Both the position numbers and the translations under genes were made by a program. A stretch of 56,423 bases of DNA from Spirochaetota bacterium (GTDB lineage Bacteria > Spirochaetota > UBA4802 > JAFGDQ01). Position 1 is the first letter of the stretch, and every line of letters starts with the position of its first letter. The stretch is from contig JAXHTS010000066.1 in NCBI GenBank assembly GCA_034190085.1, forward strand, positions 1-56,423, written 5' to 3'. Below the pieces are notes generated by a model. It had not been told where the DNA came from. It ran no database searches and saw nothing but the letters and a program-made list of their open reading frames with translations. Shown here piece after piece: positions 1,505 to 14,939 of this stretch.

Positions 1505-4028
1505 CTATCCCAATCCCTGTATAGTCCTCTGAATAATATTGTCCTGTGTTTTACGGCTGATATCCACAAAATGTGCGCTGTAACCCGCAACACGTACTAT
1601 CACCTCCTGGTACTGCTCAGGATCCTTCTGCGCTGCCCTAAGCGTTGCATCATCCACCATATTGAACTGTACATGATCAAGTCCCAGATCCGACCATGTC
1701 TTCATGTACGCCTTCCATAATTGATAGCCCTTCTCACCAGAGAGCTGTGTTGGTGAAAGACGCTGGTTCAAAAGAAAGGCCCTGCCATCGCTTACATGGT
1801 CTATCTTCCCACAAGACTTCAATACAGCCGTAGGCCCCTTCTTATCGAGCCCGGGACCAGGTGATATGCCTCCATCATAAAGCGCATCTCCCAACCTCCT
1901 ACCACTGGGAAGAGCGTGAACCATATTTGAAAAGTGTATGTTGCCACTAATGTTCTCAGGCAAAGCAGGCCACGTATTCCCTGAGGGACACCTTATCTCC
2001 CTGGAATGCCTTGCAACCTCTCTCAAACAGCGCACCATCATATCATCCGCATAATCATTATCATTTCCCCACTTAGGGGCATTATTCACAAAGTCAAGTC
2101 GCATCTCCTCCTTGCCTTCCCAGTTATTCTCCAGCGCATCCACCAACTCCTCCATCGCGTATCTCTTCTCATCAAAGACTAATCTCTTTACAGCCGCTAG
2201 GCTATCTACATTCTCAACCCACGTGAAGAAGGTTACCCAGGCATTGCCCCCTCTCAAGAGATGGCACCAACGCATCAAGACCACTCTCTATTGACTTCTC
2301 AGAGATTGCTGAGAGAAAGGGACGACCCCAATTCTCTGGACTCTTCACTCTAGCACGATTTGCTATCCGTACACCAAAATTCATTAACCACTCCATCTGT
2401 TTTACCCAAGCTGCAAATAACTCCTCAAAATCAGTAAACTTCCTCGCATCCCCTGTCCTTGGCCCCATCTGCATCTTTACTATATGATCATAACCACTAT
2501 GAAGGGCATACTCGACCATCTTTGAGCAATTCAGTGTCGCAGTAGCCATACGACATGGCTGAGCACCACGCTTCGTTGTTGGACATGGTGACATGCAGGC
2601 CTGATGTACCCAGAGCCTCATCTCATCCAGCGGATGACTATGCCAATGCATCCCATTTGCTATCAGAACAGGGTCATTCCGTATACTCGGATACCCCAAT
2701 CCGTGTCTAATGCACTCAAATACCTCCCTCCAAACCTCATCTGACACTCCTGGATGCCACCTGAATCCAAATGTCGGATTGGATACCCGAACAAACCTCG
2801 CCGCCTGCAAAAAGGCAATGGTCAAATCATTGCAGGCATCACTTCCATCAGAATTCACTCCTCCCAAGGTCCATACCCATGTGCCGGATATGCCCTGAGC
2901 TGCCTCAGACCCAAATCTCGGAAGGTAATGTCCCAACTCATAGCAACGGATCAAGAACTCCCCAACAAAATCAAGCGCCTCCTCCTTCGTAATATGCTTC
3001 TCTATATTCACATCCCTATTATAGTAAGACCAATGATAGTAATCCGGACGGGCTGGCCATGCTGACTCAAAGTCCTCGAATCTTGTCCATACCTGAATAA
3101 AATGATCGTACTGAAACGACTCCTGCAAGTTCCTCGGTGGCTTTGCAGGTACCCTCTCACATGTCTCAACAATACTCAAAAGCTCCTCCTTCCTCTTAGT
3201 ATCGGATTCAAAGCTCTCTGCTATAATCCGCGCCAACCTTGCGTATCTCTTTGCATTCCTGATACAGGCCTCCAATATAATCTGCATGGCCTCCCAATTC
3301 GGTAGCTTATCATATAGGGGAAGGATATCAGGCCCTGGATTGCCATCTATCCGCTCCTCCGCTCCGTCTATCCTCTGCTGTATCTCTTCGATTATCTCCT
3401 CAAATGCCCTCTTACCTGTCATGAAATACTCATATTCTTTTCCAGAATAACCAAAGCTGCCGCCGATAGGAACACCCCACATTAGAACAGTACTCATAAG
3501 CTTCACTGCCTCTTCACTGGAGAATTCTCTAAATATCTTACCTGTACTATCTCTCGTACCCCAATAATTGTTGATTTCAGCCATAGTCTTGAGAGATTCC
3601 TCCTCTGGCTCAGGGATTATAACTGGATCGTTGTATATCTCCTCATTGATGAAGCTTGCTAATTCACAATACCAAAAGACAGAGTTCGGAAGACTACCCA
3701 GATAGCCCACAAGCTGTGCATTATCAGTAATGAATATAGTAATATTATCAAGCACATGTGATAGGGCTTTCGCCCTCCTCAACATTATGGGATCATTTTC
3801 ACTCTCCTTCCAGGATTCAGTAAATAGCAACGGCCTCTCAATATCGATCTTAAGACCTGGTTCATACATCCCTCCCTTCTTCCCCTTCTTCCATACCGCC
3901 TTCCTCAAATAATCCAATCTCTCAGACCTCTTCTTCTCAGCAACCCACCACCATTCTCTACTATTCTCGAGTTCTTTTATATCCCTTTCCCGAGATGTAC
4001 CCCTAAAGTCCTTGGCTCGTGATTCCAT
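1505..4028 (-). pseudogene. Glycyl radical enzyme catalytic subunit (X-succinate synthase-like), single frameshift
   Basis: This gene would encode about 840 residues close in sequence to the product of 4307-6829. Reading from the ATG at 4028 (preceded by GGGAGG; a further ATG at 4043 overlaps that site), frame is lost at about 2250. There the minus strand has five G (plus 2247-2251), where four would keep SLERG-NAWVTFF in frame. The remaining part (2250-1505) is intact in the other frame. It includes the radical loop RVAGYSAHF and the C-terminal RTIQGLG. The active-site segment HQACMSPCPTTK lies in the first part. No other stop or frameshift was seen, so this is either a very recent lesion or a homopolymer error in the assembly. 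If the error explanation holds, the gene is an active second enzyme. Confidence 0.85.
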
Positions 4029-4183
4029 GTTACATCCTCCCATATTTATTTTTTTATCTAACTACTGCCATCATACCTCCAATAAAATTATCTATACATA
4101 AATTCCAACAAATCAGTTGTACCAAACATTAATATTTTAAATAATCTATATTATCTGGATCACAATTAAATAATCCATCAAAA

Positions 4184-4306: not shown

Positions 4307-6829
4307 CTAACCTAAGCCTTGTATAGTCCTCTGTATGATATTGTCCTGAGTCTTACGACTAATATCAACGAAATGAGCGCTATAACCAGCTACCCGAACA
4401 ATCACCTCCTGATACTGCTCTGGATCTTTTTGCGCAGCCCTGAGAGTAGCATCATCGATCATATTAAACTGAACGTGATCAAGCCCTAAATCAGCCCACG
4501 TCTTCATGTAAGACTTCCATAGCTGATAACCCTTCTCACCCGAAAGCTGAGTTGGCGATAAACGCTGATTTAATAAAAAAGACCTTCCCTCGCTTATATG
4601 ATTAATCTTACCACAGGACTTTAATACTGCAGTTGGCCCCTTCTTATCCAAACCAGGACCAGGTGAAATGCCGCCATCGTACAGGGCATCCCCCAACTTC
4701 CTGCCATTAGGAAGTGCATGGACCATACCCGAAAAATGTATATTGCCGCTCACATTCTCTGGCAAGGCAGGCCATGTGTTGCCAGATGGACACCTTATCA
4801 CACTTGAATGGCGCGCTGCTTCCCTCAAGCATTTAACCATTATCTCGTCCACTTCATCATCATCATTTCCCCACTTAGGAGCATTCTTCACAAAATCCAA
4901 TCTCATCCCCTCTTTCCCTTCCCAATTGCTCTCCAATGCATCCATTAACTCGTCCATCGTATACTTTTTCTCATCAAATACTAATTTCTTAACAGCTGCT
5001 AAACTATCAGCATTCTCCACCCAGGTAAAGAAAGTGACCCATGCATTGCCTCTCTCAATCGATGGCTCAAGAGCATCCATTCCAGTCTCAATACACTTTT
5101 CAGAGATGGATGATAAAAAGGGACGACCATAAAATTCGGGACTCTTCACCCGTCCCCTGTTTACTATACGCGCCGCAAAACTCATCATCCACTCCATCTG
5201 CTTCACCCATGCAGCAAAAAACTCTTCAAAATCAGCAAACGTCCTTGCATCTCCAGTTTTCGGGCCCATCTGCAATTTAATACAATGATCAAATCCATTA
5301 TGCAGCGCATACTCAACCATTTTTGAAGTATTCAATGTTGTTGAAGCCATACGACATGGTTGAAAACCATATTTGGTAGTTGGACAGGGCGACATACATG
5401 CCTGATGAACCCAAGTCCTCATCTCTTCAAGCGGATGGCTGTGCCAGTGCATCCCATTCGCTATTAAAATAGGATCATTCCGAATGCTAGGATATCCTAA
5501 ACCTTGTCGTATACATTCGAATACCTCCCTCATCACATCATCTGAAACCTTAGGGTGCCACCTGAATCCAAAGGTAGGGCCAGAGACTCTTACAAGCCTT
5601 GCTGCTTTTAAAAGCGCTAGGGTCAAATCGTTGCATGCATCGCTACCATCTGGTTTCACTCCCCCAATAGTCCATATCCATGTTCCAGATATGCCCTGAA
5701 CCCCCTCAGACGCAAATGAAGGGACATACATACCCACCTCATGGCAACGAATCATGAACTCCCCTACAAGATCAAGCGCTTCCTCCTCTGATATCTTCTT
5801 ATCAATCTTTACATCTCTATCATAATAAGGCCAGTGATAATAATCTGGACGAGATGGCCAGGCGCCTTCAGCATCCTCAAATCTACTAAAGATTTGTATA
5901 AAATGATCAAACTGCAAAGATTCCTGAAAACTCCCCGGTGGCTTAGCTGGAACCCTTTCACAGGTCTCTGCTATGCATAAGAGTTCTTCTTTCCTTTTTG
6001 GATCTGACTCATAATTCTCTGCTATTATCCTGGCTAATCTAGCAAATCTATTCGCTGTCCTAATACATGCCTCAAGAATTATCTGCATTGCCTCCCAGTT
6101 GGACAGCTTGTCATATAACGGTAGAATATCTGGCCCAGGATTCCCATCTATTTTTTCCTCAGCATCATCTATTCTTTCCTGTATCTCATCAATAATATCC
6201 TCCAATCCTCTTTTGCCATTCATAAAATACTCATAGTCCTTTCCAGCGTAACCGAAACTCCCACCAACAGGAATACCCCACATTAGGACTGTACTCATCA
6301 ATTTCACAGCCTCCTCGCTGGAAAACTCACGGAAAACCTTTCCCAGATTATCCCGCGAACCCCAGTAATTATTAAGATCAACCATAACCTTAAGCGACTC
6401 ATCCTGTGGTTCGGGTATAATAACTGGATCATTATATATCTCATCATTAACAAAACTAGCTACGTCTACATACCAGACAAGCGTATTTGGAAGACTCCCC
6501 AAATATCCCACAATTTGTGCATGGTCTGTGATATGAATAGTAATATTATCAAGGACATGGGCTACAGCCTTGGCCCTTCTCATCATTATGGGATCATTTT
6601 CGTTCTCCTTCCATGATTCAGTAAAGAGGAGTGGTCTCTCTAAATCTACTTTAATACCAGGTTCATACATCCCTCCCTTTTTACCCTTCTTCCAGACTGC
6701 TTTTCTAAGGTAATCAAGCCTCTTCGACCTCTTCTTCTCAGCAACCCACCACCATTCTCTATTATGCTCCAATTCCTCGATACTCCTTTTCTGCGAAAAC
6801 TCAACATCCCTACCTATTTCTGGTGCCAT
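4307..6829 (-). CDS. Glycyl radical enzyme catalytic subunit, fumarate-adding (alkyl-/arylsuccinate synthase) type
   Basis: This 840-residue protein is probably the large subunit of an enzyme that adds a substrate radical to fumarate. The PFL-like barrel spans roughly residues 30-690 and the glycine-radical domain 700-840. The radical loop RVAGYSAHF places the radical on Gly815. The active-site motif HQACMSPCPTTK places the thiyl cysteine at Cys478 (Cys482 is the nearby alternative). The Cys-Gly spacing and the MSPCP signature are those of BssA/AssA-type enzymes, not of PFL, diol dehydratase or isethionate lyase. GGAGGT upstream of the ATG supports the start. Two small Fe-S subunit genes lie upstream in the same orientation, as expected for this family. 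The hydrocarbon or other substrate cannot be read from the sequence, and no activase gene is nearby. Confidence 0.88.
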   Translation of the reverse strand: MAPEIGRDVEFSQKRSIEELEHNREWWWVAEKKRSKRLDYLRKAVWKKGKKGGMYEPGIKVDLERPLLFTESWKENENDPIMMRRAKAVAHVLDNITIHITDHAQIVGYLGSLPNTLVWYVDVASFVNDEIYNDPVIIPEPQDESLKVMVDLNNYWGSRDNLGKVFREFSSEEAVKLMSTVLMWGIPVGGSFGYAGKDYEYFMNGKRGLEDIIDEIQERIDDAEEKIDGNPGPDILPLYDKLSNWEAMQIILEACIRTANRFARLARIIAENYESDPKRKEELLCIAETCERVPAKPPGSFQESLQFDHFIQIFSRFEDAEGAWPSRPDYYHWPYYDRDVKIDKKISEEEALDLVGEFMIRCHEVGMYVPSFASEGVQGISGTWIWTIGGVKPDGSDACNDLTLALLKAARLVRVSGPTFGFRWHPKVSDDVMREVFECIRQGLGYPSIRNDPILIANGMHWHSHPLEEMRTWVHQACMSPCPTTKYGFQPCRMASTTLNTSKMVEYALHNGFDHCIKLQMGPKTGDARTFADFEEFFAAWVKQMEWMMSFAARIVNRGRVKSPEFYGRPFLSSISEKCIETGMDALEPSIERGNAWVTFFTWVENADSLAAVKKLVFDEKKYTMDELMDALESNWEGKEGMRLDFVKNAPKWGNDDDEVDEIMVKCLREAARHSSVIRCPSGNTWPALPENVSGNIHFSGMVHALPNGRKLGDALYDGGISPGPGLDKKGPTAVLKSCGKINHISEGRSFLLNQRLSPTQLSGEKGYQLWKSYMKTWADLGLDHVQFNMIDDATLRAAQKDPEQYQEVIVRVAGYSAHFVDISRKTQDNIIQRTIQGLG

Positions 6830-7902: not shown

Positions 7903-8265
7903 TCACTTTTTCATCTGTCTCTGATGTCGGCTAACCATTGGATCAAGTGATTGTGATATATCTGTATCTATCAATTCCAGCTCATCATAATATTTACAAT
8001 TAGCTGCATCATTATTGAAACCCACTGCCAAAAAGGCCTCTCCCTCTGTCACAAATACTGGATTATCAGTTTTAAAATCTGTGCCCTCCTTCAATACATT
8101 GCATATACCGCTCACTGTGCCCAAACCGGCCTGAAAATAATTCTTACATTTGCCACAGGCCTTATCAGGAACGGTCTCCCTCTCTTCCACACTTCTAGCC
8201 TTCTCGCTGGTACCTAACATCGCTTCCCTTACTCCATCCCATTCACTTCCTCTTTTTCTTGGCAT
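7903..8265 (-). CDS. Small Fe-S subunit of a glycyl radical enzyme (BssB/BssC-like), copy 1
   Basis: This 120-residue protein has four cysteines (Cys37, Cys40, Cys55, Cys90) in the order CGKC, GICNVL, NCKYYDE. The pattern CxxC, one Cys about 15 residues on and one about 35 further is that of the small HiPIP-like subunits that carry a [4Fe-4S] cluster in benzylsuccinate synthase-type enzymes. The identical MPRKRG start and the shared SVEERE, DTDISQS and RHQRQM segments make it a paralogue of the product of 8998-9351. It lies upstream of the catalytic genes in the same orientation, but with a 1.07-kb gap holding a GRE relic. Its role in stabilising or protecting the catalytic subunit is inferred from the family. 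Confidence 0.75.
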   Translation of the reverse strand: MPRKRGSEWDGVREAMLGTSEKARSVEERETVPDKACGKCKNYFQAGLGTVSGICNVLKEGTDFKTDNPVFVTEGEAFLAVGFNNDAANCKYYDELELIDTDISQSLDPMVSRHQRQMKK

Positions 8266-8997: not shown

Positions 8998-9351
8998 CTA
9001 CTTCTGCATCTGTCTCTGATGACGACTAAACATCGGATCATTCGATTGTGATATATCTGTATCTATTATTTCCATCTCATCATAATAGGTGCATTTACTA
9101 GCATCCATATTAAACATCGTAGGCAAGAAGACTTTACCCTCTGTAACAAATACAGGCGGTTCAACTGTAAAGTTAGTACCATCCTTTAAAACATTACATA
9201 AGCCATTACCAGAAATTTGATAAAAATTCTTGCACTTACCGCAAGCCTTCTCCGGGACATTCTCCCTCTCCTCAACACTTCTGGTTTTTTCGCTCATATC
9301 TAACATGGCATCTCTTGCGCTATTCCATTGAGCTCCTCTTTTCCTTGGCAT
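8998..9351 (-). CDS. Small Fe-S subunit of a glycyl radical enzyme (BssB/BssC-like), copy 2
   Basis: This 117-residue paralogue of the protein at 7903-8265 has cysteines at 37, 40, 52 and 87, fitting one [4Fe-4S] cluster. The N-terminal MPRKRG, the SEKTRSVEERE segment and the tail RHQRQMQK are almost the same in both. It differs mainly in the loop before Cys52, which is three residues shorter. In known fumarate-adding enzymes the beta and gamma small subunits are only distantly alike. Two close paralogues here are better read as partners for different catalytic copies than as beta plus gamma of one enzyme; this is inference. A purine-rich GGAGG-like site precedes the ATG. Confidence 0.75.
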   Translation of the reverse strand: MPRKRGAQWNSARDAMLDMSEKTRSVEERENVPEKACGKCKNFYQISGNGLCNVLKDGTNFTVEPPVFVTEGKVFLPTMFNMDASKCTYYDEMEIIDTDISQSNDPMFSRHQRQMQK

Positions 9352-9986: not shown

Positions 9987-10331
9987 TCAGAAATAAAATA
10001 TCCTCAGCTTGAGCACCATTACCAGCAAGACAGCCCCTAAAATCATCAATAAGCCAAATAGCACTTTCTGTAGTGTAACCCTCTTACTGAGGTCCAATAT
10101 AATCACGCGAAGACCTAATACAGCATGAAAGCATACACAGAGTGCCATTAAGGTTTGGATTAAAACCTGATAAGGATATACGAGATGAAGTGTCACAAAT
10201 ACAATAATACCTAAAGCAGAAAATCTCTGCAAAAGCCATGCCCACATCCCAATTTGCGTCGAACGCCACTCAGACAGGGTGAGCACCTCCCTTTTGTTAA
10301 CTATATCACCACTATTTTTAACGTCTTCCAT
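9987..10331 (-). CDS. Succinate dehydrogenase membrane anchor, SdhC/SdhD-like
   Basis: This 114-residue protein has three hydrophobic segments (about residues 29-48, 52-72, 84-108). The first carries QRFSALGIIVFVTLHL, and the second FHAVLGLRVIILDL, a histidine-glycine-arginine arrangement typical of SdhD-type anchors that bind heme b and quinone. GGAGG 7 nt upstream supports the ATG. It is the last gene of the operon with sdhA, sdhB-Rieske and cytochrome b-c, separated from the last by about 130 bp. Only one anchor gene is present where many SDHs have two. Either it works as a homodimer or the fused cytochrome b supplies the remaining quinone site (inference). Confidence 0.75.
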   Translation of the reverse strand: MEDVKNSGDIVNKREVLTLSEWRSTQIGMWAWLLQRFSALGIIVFVTLHLVYPYQVLIQTLMALCVCFHAVLGLRVIILDLSKRVTLQKVLFGLLMILGAVLLVMVLKLRIFYF

Positions 10332-10462: not shown

Positions 10463-11962
10463 TTAAATACTCTTCTCTTCTTCCCCTTTGTCATTTGTTG
10501 TGGAGACAATATCCTTTTTAAGATATACCTCATCTGTCTTTCCACTACCAATCCCAGACCTATATAGCTTATAGGTGCTCCTAAATACAGACGGTTCAAC
10601 TGTTTTTATATTATATTTCATTAAATCGATGCTTGTTACATAACTAACTAAAGCATCAAGATCATATTTATCGAAATAGTATTTTATCATCTTTCCCTTA
10701 CCCAGTACCTTATCTGGATCCTTGAGTAGGTCTTCAACAAATTTCTTATCCCTCTTAGCGCCGACCTTCCAAAGATCAGGGGCATGCTTCATTCCCACAC
10801 CCTTAATGCTATGACAACAGTAACATACATTCTTTTCAAAGATTGCCATGCCTGCAAGCTCCTTAACCTCAAGGGTACGATCTGGAGCAAAGAACTTGCC
10901 TGGAAGGGGGCTGGATATATGAGCTATAAGAGTAAGATAACCTGCGATAATGATTGCTGACACACCTGAAGCAATTGCAATAGGTCTTTTCAAATAGGCC
11001 CTCTCTTCATTTCTGTCATAAAAAGGCAATAACAATACAAGGGCACCACCTATTACAGGTACTACCGCCAATGCAATTATTATCAACTTTCCCTCAAACA
11101 TCTTTATTATCTCATATCCAAAGAGGATAAACCACTCAGGTTTAGGCACTGAATCAATATCCGCTAACGGAGAAGCCTGCTTTGCCTCATGCACACCAGC
11201 AAATTTTGCAAGTACTATCAACAATACAAAGGCAAGAATAACTACTATTACATCCTTTGCAAGTTGGTAAGGGAAAAACGGTTGTGTGCCCACATCACCC
11301 TTCTCCTTTTTAGGAGGAGGCCCTTTCTCCCCATGAATCTGAATCATCAAGATGTGGATAGCCAGAAAGCCTGCTAGCCCCAATGGGATTAACACTATAT
11401 GAAAGGCGAAATACCTTCCTAAGGTTACACCCCCGGTCTGTTTGCCACCAACGACATTTGCGATCCAGGAGCCGACGACTGGAATATAATCAAAGGTTGT
11501 TGCGAGAATCGTTACCGCCCAATAGGAGATATCAGTCCATGGTAGTATATAACCTGTAAGAGCCATTGCCATTGTTGCTCCAAGGAGAAACACCCCAGCT
11601 ATCCAGGTTACCTCATTGGGCTTTTTATATCCACCATCAAAGAAAACCCGCGCCATGTGAAGCATAACAACAATTAACATCAAATTTGAGCCCCAATGGT
11701 GTATTCCTCTTATAAGCCATCCCCAGACCATCTCATTCTGAATATACTGCGTGCTACTGTATGCGCTCTCAATTGTTGGCACAAAATTACAAGCTAATAT
11801 AATTCCTGTAACAACCTGCGAGATCAATAAAAATAGGGCCAAGGCACCTAATGTGTGCCACCAGCTTATATCCTTGGAAAGCGGCTTATAAATAACCTTT
11901 TCCTTTAAAAAGTCCCAAAGTAACCGATCATCAACCCATCTTTTTTTCTGAACTGGTTCCAT
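10463..11962 (-). CDS. Cytochrome b (b6 plus subunit IV type) fused to a C-terminal cytochrome c domain
   Basis: This is the 499-residue core of a bc-type quinol oxidoreductase. Heme b ligands are visible as His88-x13-His102 and His188-x14-His203; the 14-residue second spacing is the b6 type. The quinol-site motif PEWF is at 275-278, in the subunit-IV-like half. After the last membrane segment (about 330-347) comes a heme c domain with CYCCH at 380-384, and Met425 as a possible axial ligand. So b6, subunit IV and cytochrome c are one chain. The ATG lies 3 nt after the stop of the upstream sdhB-Rieske gene, with a GAGGAAG site inside that gene, so the two are translationally linked. The cytochrome c domain should face the periplasm and take electrons from the Rieske head. 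Confidence 0.9.
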   Translation of the reverse strand: MEPVQKKRWVDDRLLWDFLKEKVIYKPLSKDISWWHTLGALALFLLISQVVTGIILACNFVPTIESAYSSTQYIQNEMVWGWLIRGIHHWGSNLMLIVVMLHMARVFFDGGYKKPNEVTWIAGVFLLGATMAMALTGYILPWTDISYWAVTILATTFDYIPVVGSWIANVVGGKQTGGVTLGRYFAFHIVLIPLGLAGFLAIHILMIQIHGEKGPPPKKEKGDVGTQPFFPYQLAKDVIVVILAFVLLIVLAKFAGVHEAKQASPLADIDSVPKPEWFILFGYEIIKMFEGKLIIIALAVVPVIGGALVLLLPFYDRNEERAYLKRPIAIASGVSAIIIAGYLTLIAHISSPLPGKFFAPDRTLEVKELAGMAIFEKNVCYCCHSIKGVGMKHAPDLWKVGAKRDKKFVEDLLKDPDKVLGKGKMIKYYFDKYDLDALVSYVTSIDLMKYNIKTVEPSVFRSTYKLYRSGIGSGKTDEVYLKKDIVSTTNDKGEEEKSI

Positions 11963-11965
11963 AAT

Positions 11966-13225
11966 CTATGCTTCCTCCAAATTCCGAAGATAGAGTTCTC
12001 CTCCCTCAACCTTAACCTCTAATCGCTCCAAAGGCCTAGGCGGGGGACCTACAACTACTTTCCCATCTATATCAAATGCACCCCCATGGCAAGGACACAT
12101 AAATTTACGTATTGAATCTTCCCAATAACAAATACAACCTAAATGTGTACAGGTTGGATCAATTGCGCTAATTTCGCCCTTCTCATTTTTCACAACATAG
12201 GCTCTCTTAGGATAGGTGACAAGACGGCCCTTCTCCCATTTCTTCCTCTCATAAATCACCTCGGCTGGCTTATTGACATCGACCTCTGGCATTGCGCCAA
12301 CATTAATCCATCCCTTCACCCATCCACGTACCCCCTTGCTAAGCAAGGGTACAGAAAAAACACCCGCAAAAACCGCCGCGACAAGGCCAGCGCCTCCCAA
12401 AAACACTGTCTTCAAGAAACTCCTTCTCTCTAAAAGAGACTCACCGGGCGCTGAAGGTGGAGGAGGGGTTATCGACCTAACCTTTCCGCCTTCCTGTTCC
12501 TTCAACTCATTCTTCTTCTGCGACATAAAGGGATACAATACAGCCTGCCTCTTTAGATGATTAACCGCTTCTGTAGGACGCAACTCTTTTGGACAGGCAT
12601 CAGTGCAACGAAGCTCAGTATGACAACGCCATATCCCTGATTCCGAAATTAGATTCAGAAGCCGCTCCCTTCCCTCTGCATCACGATCATCCTTGAGTTT
12701 GGCATCCGCGGCCAAAAACGCAAAAGGGCCCGGGAAGTCAGGATCCCAACTGCACATTGTACATGCGGCATAACAGGAACCACATAGAATGCACTCCACT
12801 AGACCATCCAATTCTTTACGATTTTTTTTAGATTGATAAAACTCTTTATTTTCTTGAGGTATCTCCTTTGGTATGAGATAGGGTTCAACAATTTCATATT
12901 TTCTATAAAAATCTGTCATATCAACAACCAAATCTTTTAATAACGGAAGGTGAGCAAGCGGCTCAAGAACTACTTTTTTAGTTTTTAAATTCTTTACAAT
13001 AGTGCGACAAGCAAGTCCATATCGACCATTTATTTTCATTCCACAAGAACCACAAACTGCCGCCCGACAGGAACATCGATAGGCAATGCTTGAATCAAGA
13101 TTTTCCAAAATATAAAATAGACATTCCAATACAGTTGTGTCACTCTCTACAGGCACTTGGAACACATCATATCGAGGTTCTTTATCCACATCTGGATCAA
13201 ATCTTAATACTTTAAACTCAACCAT
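11966..13225 (-). CDS. sdhB: Succinate dehydrogenase iron-sulfur subunit fused to a Rieske protein
   Basis: This single 419-residue chain has two modules. Residues 1-240 are SdhB: [2Fe-2S] ligands Cys53, 58, 61 and 73, [4Fe-4S] ligands Cys145, 148, 151 and 211, and [3Fe-4S] ligands Cys155, 201 and 207, all at standard spacing. A proline-rich linker (about 253-265) leads to a twin-arginine-like segment, ERRSFLKT, and one membrane helix (about 272-296). Then comes a complete Rieske domain with CTHLGC (359-364) and CPCHGG (377-382). The start is the ATG at 13225, with GGAGGT at 13237-13232. An upstream in-frame ATG at 13297 lies inside sdhA and lacks this support. sdhA ends one base earlier. SdhB would sit in the cytoplasm and the Rieske head outside, joined across the membrane. 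Confidence 0.92.
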   Translation of the reverse strand: MVEFKVLRFDPDVDKEPRYDVFQVPVESDTTVLECLFYILENLDSSIAYRCSCRAAVCGSCGMKINGRYGLACRTIVKNLKTKKVVLEPLAHLPLLKDLVVDMTDFYRKYEIVEPYLIPKEIPQENKEFYQSKKNRKELDGLVECILCGSCYAACTMCSWDPDFPGPFAFLAADAKLKDDRDAEGRERLLNLISESGIWRCHTELRCTDACPKELRPTEAVNHLKRQAVLYPFMSQKKNELKEQEGGKVRSITPPPPSAPGESLLERRSFLKTVFLGGAGLVAAVFAGVFSVPLLSKGVRGWVKGWINVGAMPEVDVNKPAEVIYERKKWEKGRLVTYPKRAYVVKNEKGEISAIDPTCTHLGCICYWEDSIRKFMCPCHGGAFDIDGKVVVGPPPRPLERLEVKVEGGELYLRNLEEA

Positions 13226-13226
13226 C

Positions 13227-14939
13227 CTAATACCTCCTCTCTTCTGGCTGCCATTTTGTGACAGATACTGACTTATAAGAAAGTTTTGGTCCATCATCAG
13301 TGCATTTCGCTACAGTATGCTTCATCCACTTCTTATCATCCCGTTTCTCAAAATCCCTTCTATAATGAGCGCCACGAGACTCTTCACGCTTTAGCGCTCC
13401 TAACGTAATCACCTCCGCCATATCAAGATTCGCCTTTATCTCTAAAGTCCAGGTCTTATCATAATTAAAAACATTACCTTTACTGATTGATCTTATATTC
13501 TTAAACCGCTTCTTCAACTCCCTTACATGGTTTAAGGCAGATGTTAAACCTTCCTTGTTTCTAAAGACCTGCACCTTTGTATCCATTACTTCATGCAACT
13601 CATCCTGAATATGATATTGATTCTCTGTTCCTCCACGATTGTACAACTCATCCAATTCCGCCTCTTTCTTCTTCAATACATTCTTGATAATTCCATCCTT
13701 CTTGGAAGCGCCCTTCCCCTTTACAATATTACCAACATAATCCCCAACCCTTGCTCCAAATACCACACAATCCAAAAGGGAGTTTCCACCGAGCCGATTA
13801 GCGCCATGCACGCTCACACAAGCGCACTCTCCACAAGCATAAAATCCTTCCATCTCTGTCTTGCCATCAGCGTCAGCATCTATACCACCCATAGTGTAAT
13901 GAACCGCTGGCCGAATAGGAATAGGCTTTTTAATGGGATCAATTCCCAAAAATTCTATACATATCTCTCGTATTCCAGGAAGTCTCTCCATTATCTTCTC
14001 AGCTCCCAGATGTCTCAAATCTAGATGAACATAATCGCCTTTATCTATCCCATGTCCCTCGTTGATCTCTGTCATAATGGAACGTGCGACCATATCCCTG
14101 GGAGCAATCTCCATATAATTCGGGGCATACTTTTTCATAAACCGCTCACCCTCATTATTAATAAGGTAGCCCCCCTCTCCTCTTGCCCCTTCAGATATTA
14201 AAATATTTTTCCCAATTATACCGCTGGGATGAAACTGAACAAACTCCATATCTAATAGTGGTATGCCCGCCCAATACGGCAAAGTAACACCCAATGCAGT
14301 TGAACTATAAGAATTTGTTGTATGTCCATAGATTCTGCCCGAACCTCCCGTTGCGAATATTACAGCATGCCCAAGAAAAATTTCAAGCTTCCCTGTTCGC
14401 ATATTAAAGCATGTTACACCCTTACAAACCCCATCATCGACAACCAACCCTATAACATAATATTCATCATAGAGTACGACATGATCCTTTAATGTAAGGT
14501 ATTTCTGAAACAGGGTATGAAGTATAAAATGACCTGTCCGGTCAGAGCCATAACATGTTCTTGGGAAGGCCCCACCGCCAAATGGCCGTTGAGCTATTGT
14601 GCCATCCTCCTCCCTTGAAAACGGGCATCCCCATTGCTCTAACTCCCTAATCCTATCAGGAGCCTCTTTGGTCATAATCTCAATTGCATCCTGATCTCCC
14701 AAAAAATCACTTCCTTTAACAGTATCGTAAGCATGCCTTTCAGCGCTATCATCCCTCCCTTCAGGATTATTGCCCAGTGAGCCATTTATTCCACCCTGAG
14801 CCTGCCCGGAATGTGATCTTATTGGATATATTTTTGATATCCAACCAACATCAACACCAAGAAGGCCTGCTTTATCCACCGCCATATTGCCAGCAAGACC
14901 TCCACCTACAACAAGCAGTTCATGCGAATGAGCCTCCAT
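13227..14939 (-). CDS. sdhA: Succinate dehydrogenase / fumarate reductase flavoprotein subunit
   Basis: This 570-residue flavoprotein interconverts succinate and fumarate. The N-terminal FAD fold has [11 protein letters not shown], and the FAD-linking histidine lies in [17 protein letters not shown]. Active-site elements are the HPSG motif, the RDMVARSI arginine, and [28 protein letters not shown] matches the family near the C-terminal FAD contacts. It is the first gene of the operon. Its stop (13229-13227) is one base from the ATG of sdhB-Rieske, whose ribosome binding site lies in the last sdhA codons. The company of a bc-type complex argues for the succinate-oxidising direction. Next to a fumarate-adding GRE cluster it could regenerate fumarate; that link is inference. 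Confidence 0.93.

Follow-up and report, generated by a model that had tools for sequence, protein, structure and literature searches.

Class C succinate dehydrogenases (SDHs) require two membrane anchors to enclose heme and quinone, and the mitochondrial I-II-III2-IV2 supercomplex is a non-covalent assembly in which the anchors of complex II are complete. Rieske proteins normally retain an uncleaved Tat anchor with a cytoplasmic N-terminus, and their hinge is located C-terminal to the membrane helix. Among the respiratory complexes, complex II is regarded as the one bound least tightly into supercomplexes (PMC10238741); in the mitochondrial supercomplex it is physically near complex III (as cited in PMC10238741), and in the mycobacterial class F SDH it is associated with a Rieske-type cluster that sits inside a six-helix membrane subunit (7D6V; PMC10238741). 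Internal Tat signals are documented for the Streptomyces Rieske protein Sco2149, which has a 43-residue loop ahead of RR, and for a NapH-NapG-type polyferredoxin with clusters on both sides; in these, Sec-inserted helices precede the Tat segment, and such dual Sec-Tat proteins have possibly arisen from adjacent genes (PMC5449189).

Here, we describe a locus from the draft genome (86 contigs) of an uncultured anaerobic bacterium of the Spirochaetota, in which a single gene joins SdhB to a Rieske protein. The gene lies in the window, by which we mean the whole stretch of 56,423 nucleotides that was analysed, and the features around it are collected in Table 1. Its domains and ligands mark the protein as an SdhB and as a Rieske protein at once. 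The SDH set to which it belongs is neither of class B (one 5-TM anchor of at least about 200 residues), nor of class C (two anchors of 3 TM each), nor of class F: operon and genome hold one small 3-TM anchor, and the Rieske ligands lie in a globular domain. Like the class F enzyme, the set associates SDH with a Rieske-type cluster, but here the cluster belongs to a full Rieske protein carried on SdhB and predicted to lie outside the membrane. As in the mitochondrial supercomplex, complex II may be close to complex III.

Table 1. Features of the SDH-Rieske-cytochrome b locus and its surroundings (positions in the window).
Feature	Position	Strand	Remarks
SdhB-Rieske fusion protein	11966..13225	minus	419 aa, single frame
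AGGAGG Shine-Dalgarno of fusion gene	13233..13238	minus	
SdhB domain	12533..13225	minus	residues 1-231; ligands for [2Fe-2S], [4Fe-4S] and [3Fe-4S] all present
Linker	12431..12532	minus	residues 232-265, 34 residues, PFMSQKKNELKEQEGGKVRSITPPPPSAPGESLL; stops in both other frames
ERRSFLK twin-arginine motif and single membrane helix	12338..12430	minus	residues 266-296
Rieske head	11969..12337	minus	residues 297-419, CTHLGC and CPCHGG
SdhA flavoprotein	13227..14939	minus	570 aa
Cytochrome b6/petD fused to C-terminal mono-heme cytochrome c	10463..11962	minus	
Single SdhC-like 3-TM membrane anchor	9987..10331	minus	114 aa; only Sdh_cyt gene found in genome
Small Cys-containing subunit-like protein	8998..9351	minus	Pfam/NCBIfam: no match
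Paralogous small Cys-containing subunit-like protein	7903..8265	minus	Pfam/NCBIfam: no match
Glycyl radical enzyme, MasD (1-methylalkylsuccinate synthase) type	4307..6829	minus	fumarate consumer

The frame is unbroken from the ATG at 13225 to the stop codon at 11968-11966 (419 codons); an alternative in-frame ATG at 13297 lies upstream, within sdhA, and lacks a comparable Shine-Dalgarno sequence. In a three-frame check of the fusion gene, both other frames contained several stops across the linker region. The original prediction of an SdhB domain followed by ERRSFLKT, a single helix and a Rieske head in one frame is confirmed, its coordinates being right within a few residues, and the twin-arginine segment is internal, as it had claimed, with R267-R268 placed after the SdhB domain. 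No start codon with a Shine-Dalgarno sequence was found just 5' of RR. Two candidate internal starts were rejected, namely the ATG at 12526, the sole one, 33 codons 5' of RR and without a Shine-Dalgarno sequence, and a TTG at residue 241, which has merely a weak purine run ahead of it. The AATGAG at linker residues 239-240 was considered as a relic of an ATGA overlap, but it is no better than chance, and the trees described below speak against descent from an Aminicenantia operon. A promoter and terminator scan gave counts near those of shuffled sequence and no usable signal.

Both halves of the protein are complete. Residues 1-231 match the NCBIfam succinate dehydrogenase Fe-S subunit with 268 bits, above the cut-off, and E. 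coli SdhB (1nek_B) with 3.9e-54, and they comprise Fer2_3 and the dicluster domain. None of the 11 cluster cysteines is missing (C53/58/61/73, C145/148/151/211 and C155/201/207), and by their position against E. coli SdhB we take them to be the ligands. The linker is rich in proline and charge and is probably disordered, those of its residues that were included in a model of the Rieske half having low pLDDT as far as the helix start. The hydrophobic peak at about residues 274-296, with the RR pair ahead of it, is the only one in the whole protein; by inspection, the helix is glycine/alanine-rich and is followed by K, R and K. Residues 314-400 constitute the Pfam Rieske domain, with ligands C359/H361/C377/H380 and the pair C364/C379, and in all respects but one the protein has the features of bc/b6f Rieske proteins, i.e. 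both boxes, the disulfide pair and an anchor ahead of the head, the exception being that this anchor is internal, not N-terminal. The model of the Rieske half (mean pLDDT 84) shows the whole Rieske fold together with one long helix, and its best structural matches are Rieske proteins, b6f ones among them; a model of the full-length fusion was poor in the C-terminal half (mean pLDDT 60).

The gene is embedded in a tight minus-strand operon in which 1 nt separates sdhA from the fusion and 3 nt separate the fusion from the cytochrome b gene, with the SdhC-like anchor after the cytochrome b-c gene. As in class C-like complex II (E. coli 1NEK, M. smegmatis 6LUM), the ligands of SdhA and SdhB are complete and the SdhC-type anchor has its heme-ligand His (in a CFHAVLG motif), together with the Q-site Arg/Ser pattern; unlike there, the window has one 3-TM anchor rather than two, a Rieske protein on the C-terminus of SdhB and a cytochrome b-c in the operon. 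The cytochrome b6/petD part (residues 1-350) has the four heme-ligand His with b6-type spacing (88/102 and 188/203) and the Qo motif PEWF, an instance of the PEW(Y/F) motif of Qcr/b6f-type cytochrome b, and the cytochrome c part has the heme motif CYCCH at residues 380-384. The locus shares with Qcr/b6f-type menaquinol:cytochrome c reductases (Bacillota QcrABC; Chloroflexota loci L038, L042 and L059) the Rieske insert, the b6-type spacing and a PetD-like part followed by cytochrome c, but differs in that b6 and PetD-c form a single chain and that SdhB and Rieske are fused. At L042 and L059, an SDH operon complete with its two anchors faces a Rieske-b6-petD/c operon head to head, such that complexes II and III are adjacent but divergent and both anchors are retained.

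Further along the same strand, the product of the MasD-type gene matches its best solved relative, MasD (9o8u_A), over nearly the whole length with 1327 bits. A second glycyl radical enzyme gene on the minus strand is split into two overlapping frames (window positions 1505-2284 and 2214-4043), whose products are a C-terminal part of 259 aa, which carries the glycine radical domain, and an N-terminal part of 609 aa, and is either a frameshifted paralogue or an assembly error. The two paralogous small proteins have MPRKRG... and CGKCKN and are probably small Fe-S subunits of alkylsuccinate synthase. The genome encodes TatC, and no heme-copper oxidase was detected in it. Contamination of the contig is not supported by the one marker considered, the single-copy gltX on the same contig, which has all its matches in same-order genomes (up to 64% identity, full-length). 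In the rest of the phylum, the SDHs that were examined carry either 5-TM anchors or none recognisable and are without an adjacent Rieske or cytochrome b gene; since the fusion is also absent from all 198 relatives searched, the operon is either foreign to the lineage or has been lost elsewhere.

The fusion is real and so far unique, known from one genome. Searches of about 790 other genomes and of plasmids yielded no second case, and none was found by a peptide-pattern search of 85,000 species, the pattern reaching close relatives only, or as a full-length protein in the Aminicenantia class and in samples of Fidelibacterota and Chloroflexota. One long SdhB match from Chloroflexota (G968; L196:3557-4600, plus strand) was rejected as a fusion, its C-terminal extension of roughly 100 residues not being Rieske. 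Neither an SdhB-Rieske fusion nor an SDH-Rieske-cytb operon, that of Aminicenantes included, is described in the open-access literature that was searched. Homologues with the same junction, which had been sought, were thus not encountered among the genomes searched, and an unfused counterpart of sdhB and Rieske was found instead. A separate Rieske start in relatives had been named as grounds for abandoning the fusion: every relative found does have one, but the window does not, and the fusion stands.

A cytochrome b scan of named genomes led to the Aminicenantes contig L056, and a class-wide search with locus retrieval added many more loci. In the L056 operon, which is shared by Aminicenantes and related genomes, sdhC-sdhA-sdhB-Rieske-cytB form a single run, and SDH is thus, as in the window, co-operonic with Rieske and cytochrome b and has one anchor. 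The operon differs in that it lacks a cytochrome c domain, has an extra one-TM protein and keeps sdhB and Rieske as separate genes at 28/28 inspected junctions, with an ATGA overlap in 26 and one base between the genes in 2; the Rieske proteins begin about 8-10 residues ahead of RR, within a wider range of about 5-15. The two kinds of locus also fall into separate clades. In the SdhA tree the window groups with two-anchor SDHs of Fidelibacterota and Chloroflexota (support 98/98 and 98/95), and the Aminicenantia operons cluster separately (100/100). In the cytochrome b tree the window joins Qcr-type proteins of Chloroflexota, Nitrospirota and Bacillota (98/91), apart from Aminicenantia, its exact position being unsure owing to a long branch. 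The insert in the Rieske head is common to the window and the Chloroflexota/Bacillota Qcr type and is absent from Aminicenantia. Taken together, both trees and the insert indicate that the SDH-Rieske-cytb linkage probably arose at least twice.

Directly 3' of cytB, several Aminicenantia loci (L056, L159-L161, L163, L165, L169, L174, L206, L216 and L221) have a gene for a conserved protein (about 100-150 aa) whose N-terminus resembles a signal and which has a single TM near its C-terminus (..IKEKTAIYVFLVWMWLSIVVLIYILRLKIKEADRL..); neither of the two tested had a Pfam match, and the protein may be an additional subunit of the SDH-Rieske-cytb complex. No CxxCH gene was found directly downstream in the Aminicenantia operons. 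As read from the sequence, 2-oxoacid:ferredoxin oxidoreductase-like genes follow the operon at L056, L159-L161 and L174, and these neighbours suggest a TCA-cycle role in Aminicenantia.

The best evidence for complexes II and III as one physical unit is the count of anchors, made with an HMM of SDH anchors built for this analysis. Exactly one 3-TM anchor was present in 33/33 countable SDH-Rieske-cytb operons (the window, 22 and 10), a pattern that represents two independent evolutionary events and not 33, and two anchors were present in all 17 SDH loci of the same type without a co-directional Rieske-cytb (9 + 8). A Pfam search of whole genomes likewise returned one Sdh_cyt in the window's genome and in 22/22 linked genomes, and at least two in 7/7 controls. 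Given the two-anchor need of class C enzymes, the loss of one anchor where cytochrome b has been gained suggests that the latter does part of the anchor's work; the association is strong and falls short of proof.

With regard to export, the fusion has the sequence features of a Tat substrate, RRxFLK standing before a moderately hydrophobic helix in a genome with TatC, and the combination of a glycine/alanine-rich helix and following positive residues has been linked to avoiding Sec insertion (PMC5449189). The internal RR with cytoplasmic parts ahead is shared with Sco2149 and the NapH-NapG-type polyferredoxin, of which the latter, having clusters on both sides, comes close as a precedent, and the linker is similar in length to the pre-RR loop of the Streptomyces Rieske protein (PMC5449189). 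Unlike in these dual Sec-Tat proteins, no hydrophobic segment comes before the Tat helix, and the novelty is that a soluble, cluster-bearing domain precedes the Tat signal. These features support the proposed topology, in which SdhB would lie inside and the Rieske head outside. They give no support to the further suggestions that this topology is a special challenge for Tat and that it tethers SdhB to a moving periplasmic head: as Rieske N-termini are normally inside and internal Tat signals are documented, SdhB would only lengthen a tail that is already cytoplasmic, and as the hinge lies beyond the membrane helix, the tether would not be on the moving part. The operon, the fusion of cytochrome b with cytochrome c and the lack of a second SDH anchor, on which the original prediction is silent, tell more than the topology does.

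On balance, we favour a reading in which complexes II and III are combined and the fusion is one of the subunits. In such a complex, SdhA and the SdhB domain would occupy the cytoplasmic face, the membrane part would consist of cytochrome b, the Rieske helix and one SdhC-like anchor (3 TM, where 6 are usual), and the Rieske head and the cytochrome c domain of cytochrome b would lie outside. SdhB would fold and be loaded with its clusters in the cytoplasm, Tat would recognise the internal RR about 35 residues after the SdhB fold and export the folded Rieske head, and the Rieske helix would be left as an N-in anchor. The SdhB and Rieske clusters being on opposite sides of the membrane, the covalent link would be no electron wire; it would rather set stoichiometry and keep the SDH quinone site beside cytochrome b. 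Electrons would likely flow from succinate via FAD and the SdhB clusters to quinone at the SdhC/cytochrome b interface, and on through Qo and Rieske to cytochrome c, and such a succinate:cytochrome c oxidoreductase would regenerate fumarate for the neighbouring alkylsuccinate synthase (MasD).

Four other explanations were weighed against the combined complex. After translation, a protease might cut the linker and leave complexes II and III separate with the quinone pool in common, which would suit both a long, proline-rich and, on the model, probably disordered linker and the fact that the two parts are separate proteins in every relative; we regard this as unlikely, as cleavage leaves the single SDH anchor of the linked operons unexplained and sits poorly with an in-frame fusion that has no Rieske start of its own. 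To a single complex working in reverse, as an energy-driven succinate:menaquinone reductase or a quinol:fumarate reductase whose two b hemes cross the membrane (cf. class B SDH), we assign a low probability. Electron transfer from succinate to menaquinone is uphill by established biochemistry, and a heme-copper oxidase in the window's genome, as noted, was not found; the reverse direction is a serious rival because an acceptor for the cytochrome c was not found and a CxxCH gene is lacking directly downstream in the Aminicenantia operons, several of which are followed by the 2-oxoacid:ferredoxin oxidoreductase-like genes. Against it, the window's added cytochrome c and the adjacent fumarate consumer suit succinate oxidation. 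A recent chance fusion without a selected function, tolerated where the geometry permits, would agree with its occurrence in one genome only but is most improbable, as cytochrome b-c is fused as well, one anchor has been lost, and the catalytic motifs are all intact. A sequencing or assembly indel that merged two genes is likewise scarcely credible: the draft state of the genome, the split gene elsewhere in the window and the Rieske gene lying one frame off sdhB in 26/28 relatives, where one indel could join the two, speak for it, but no start with a Shine-Dalgarno sequence stands at a proper distance before RR, the sole ATG is far from the 5-15 residues of relatives, and the joined stretch resembles a typical interdomain linker.

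More broadly, and more tentatively than for the combined complex itself, the locus may represent a new integrated type of complex II-III of at least two origins, in which cytochrome b stands in the place of the second SDH anchor and one quinone path would be shared by succinate oxidation and the Q-cycle, with the halves in the window joined covalently through SdhB-Rieske and a cluster-bearing soluble domain ahead of the Tat signal. Operons in two lineages that link complex II with a cytochrome bc complex and have dropped half of the anchor point to a stable II-III unit and provide concrete enzymes to purify. Further, the fusion opens to direct test the question of whether Tat can export the C-terminal half of a protein when the soluble half ahead of it has already folded and taken up its clusters. 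For the organism, the arrangement suggests that an anaerobic alkane degrader could couple the regeneration of fumarate with energy conservation.
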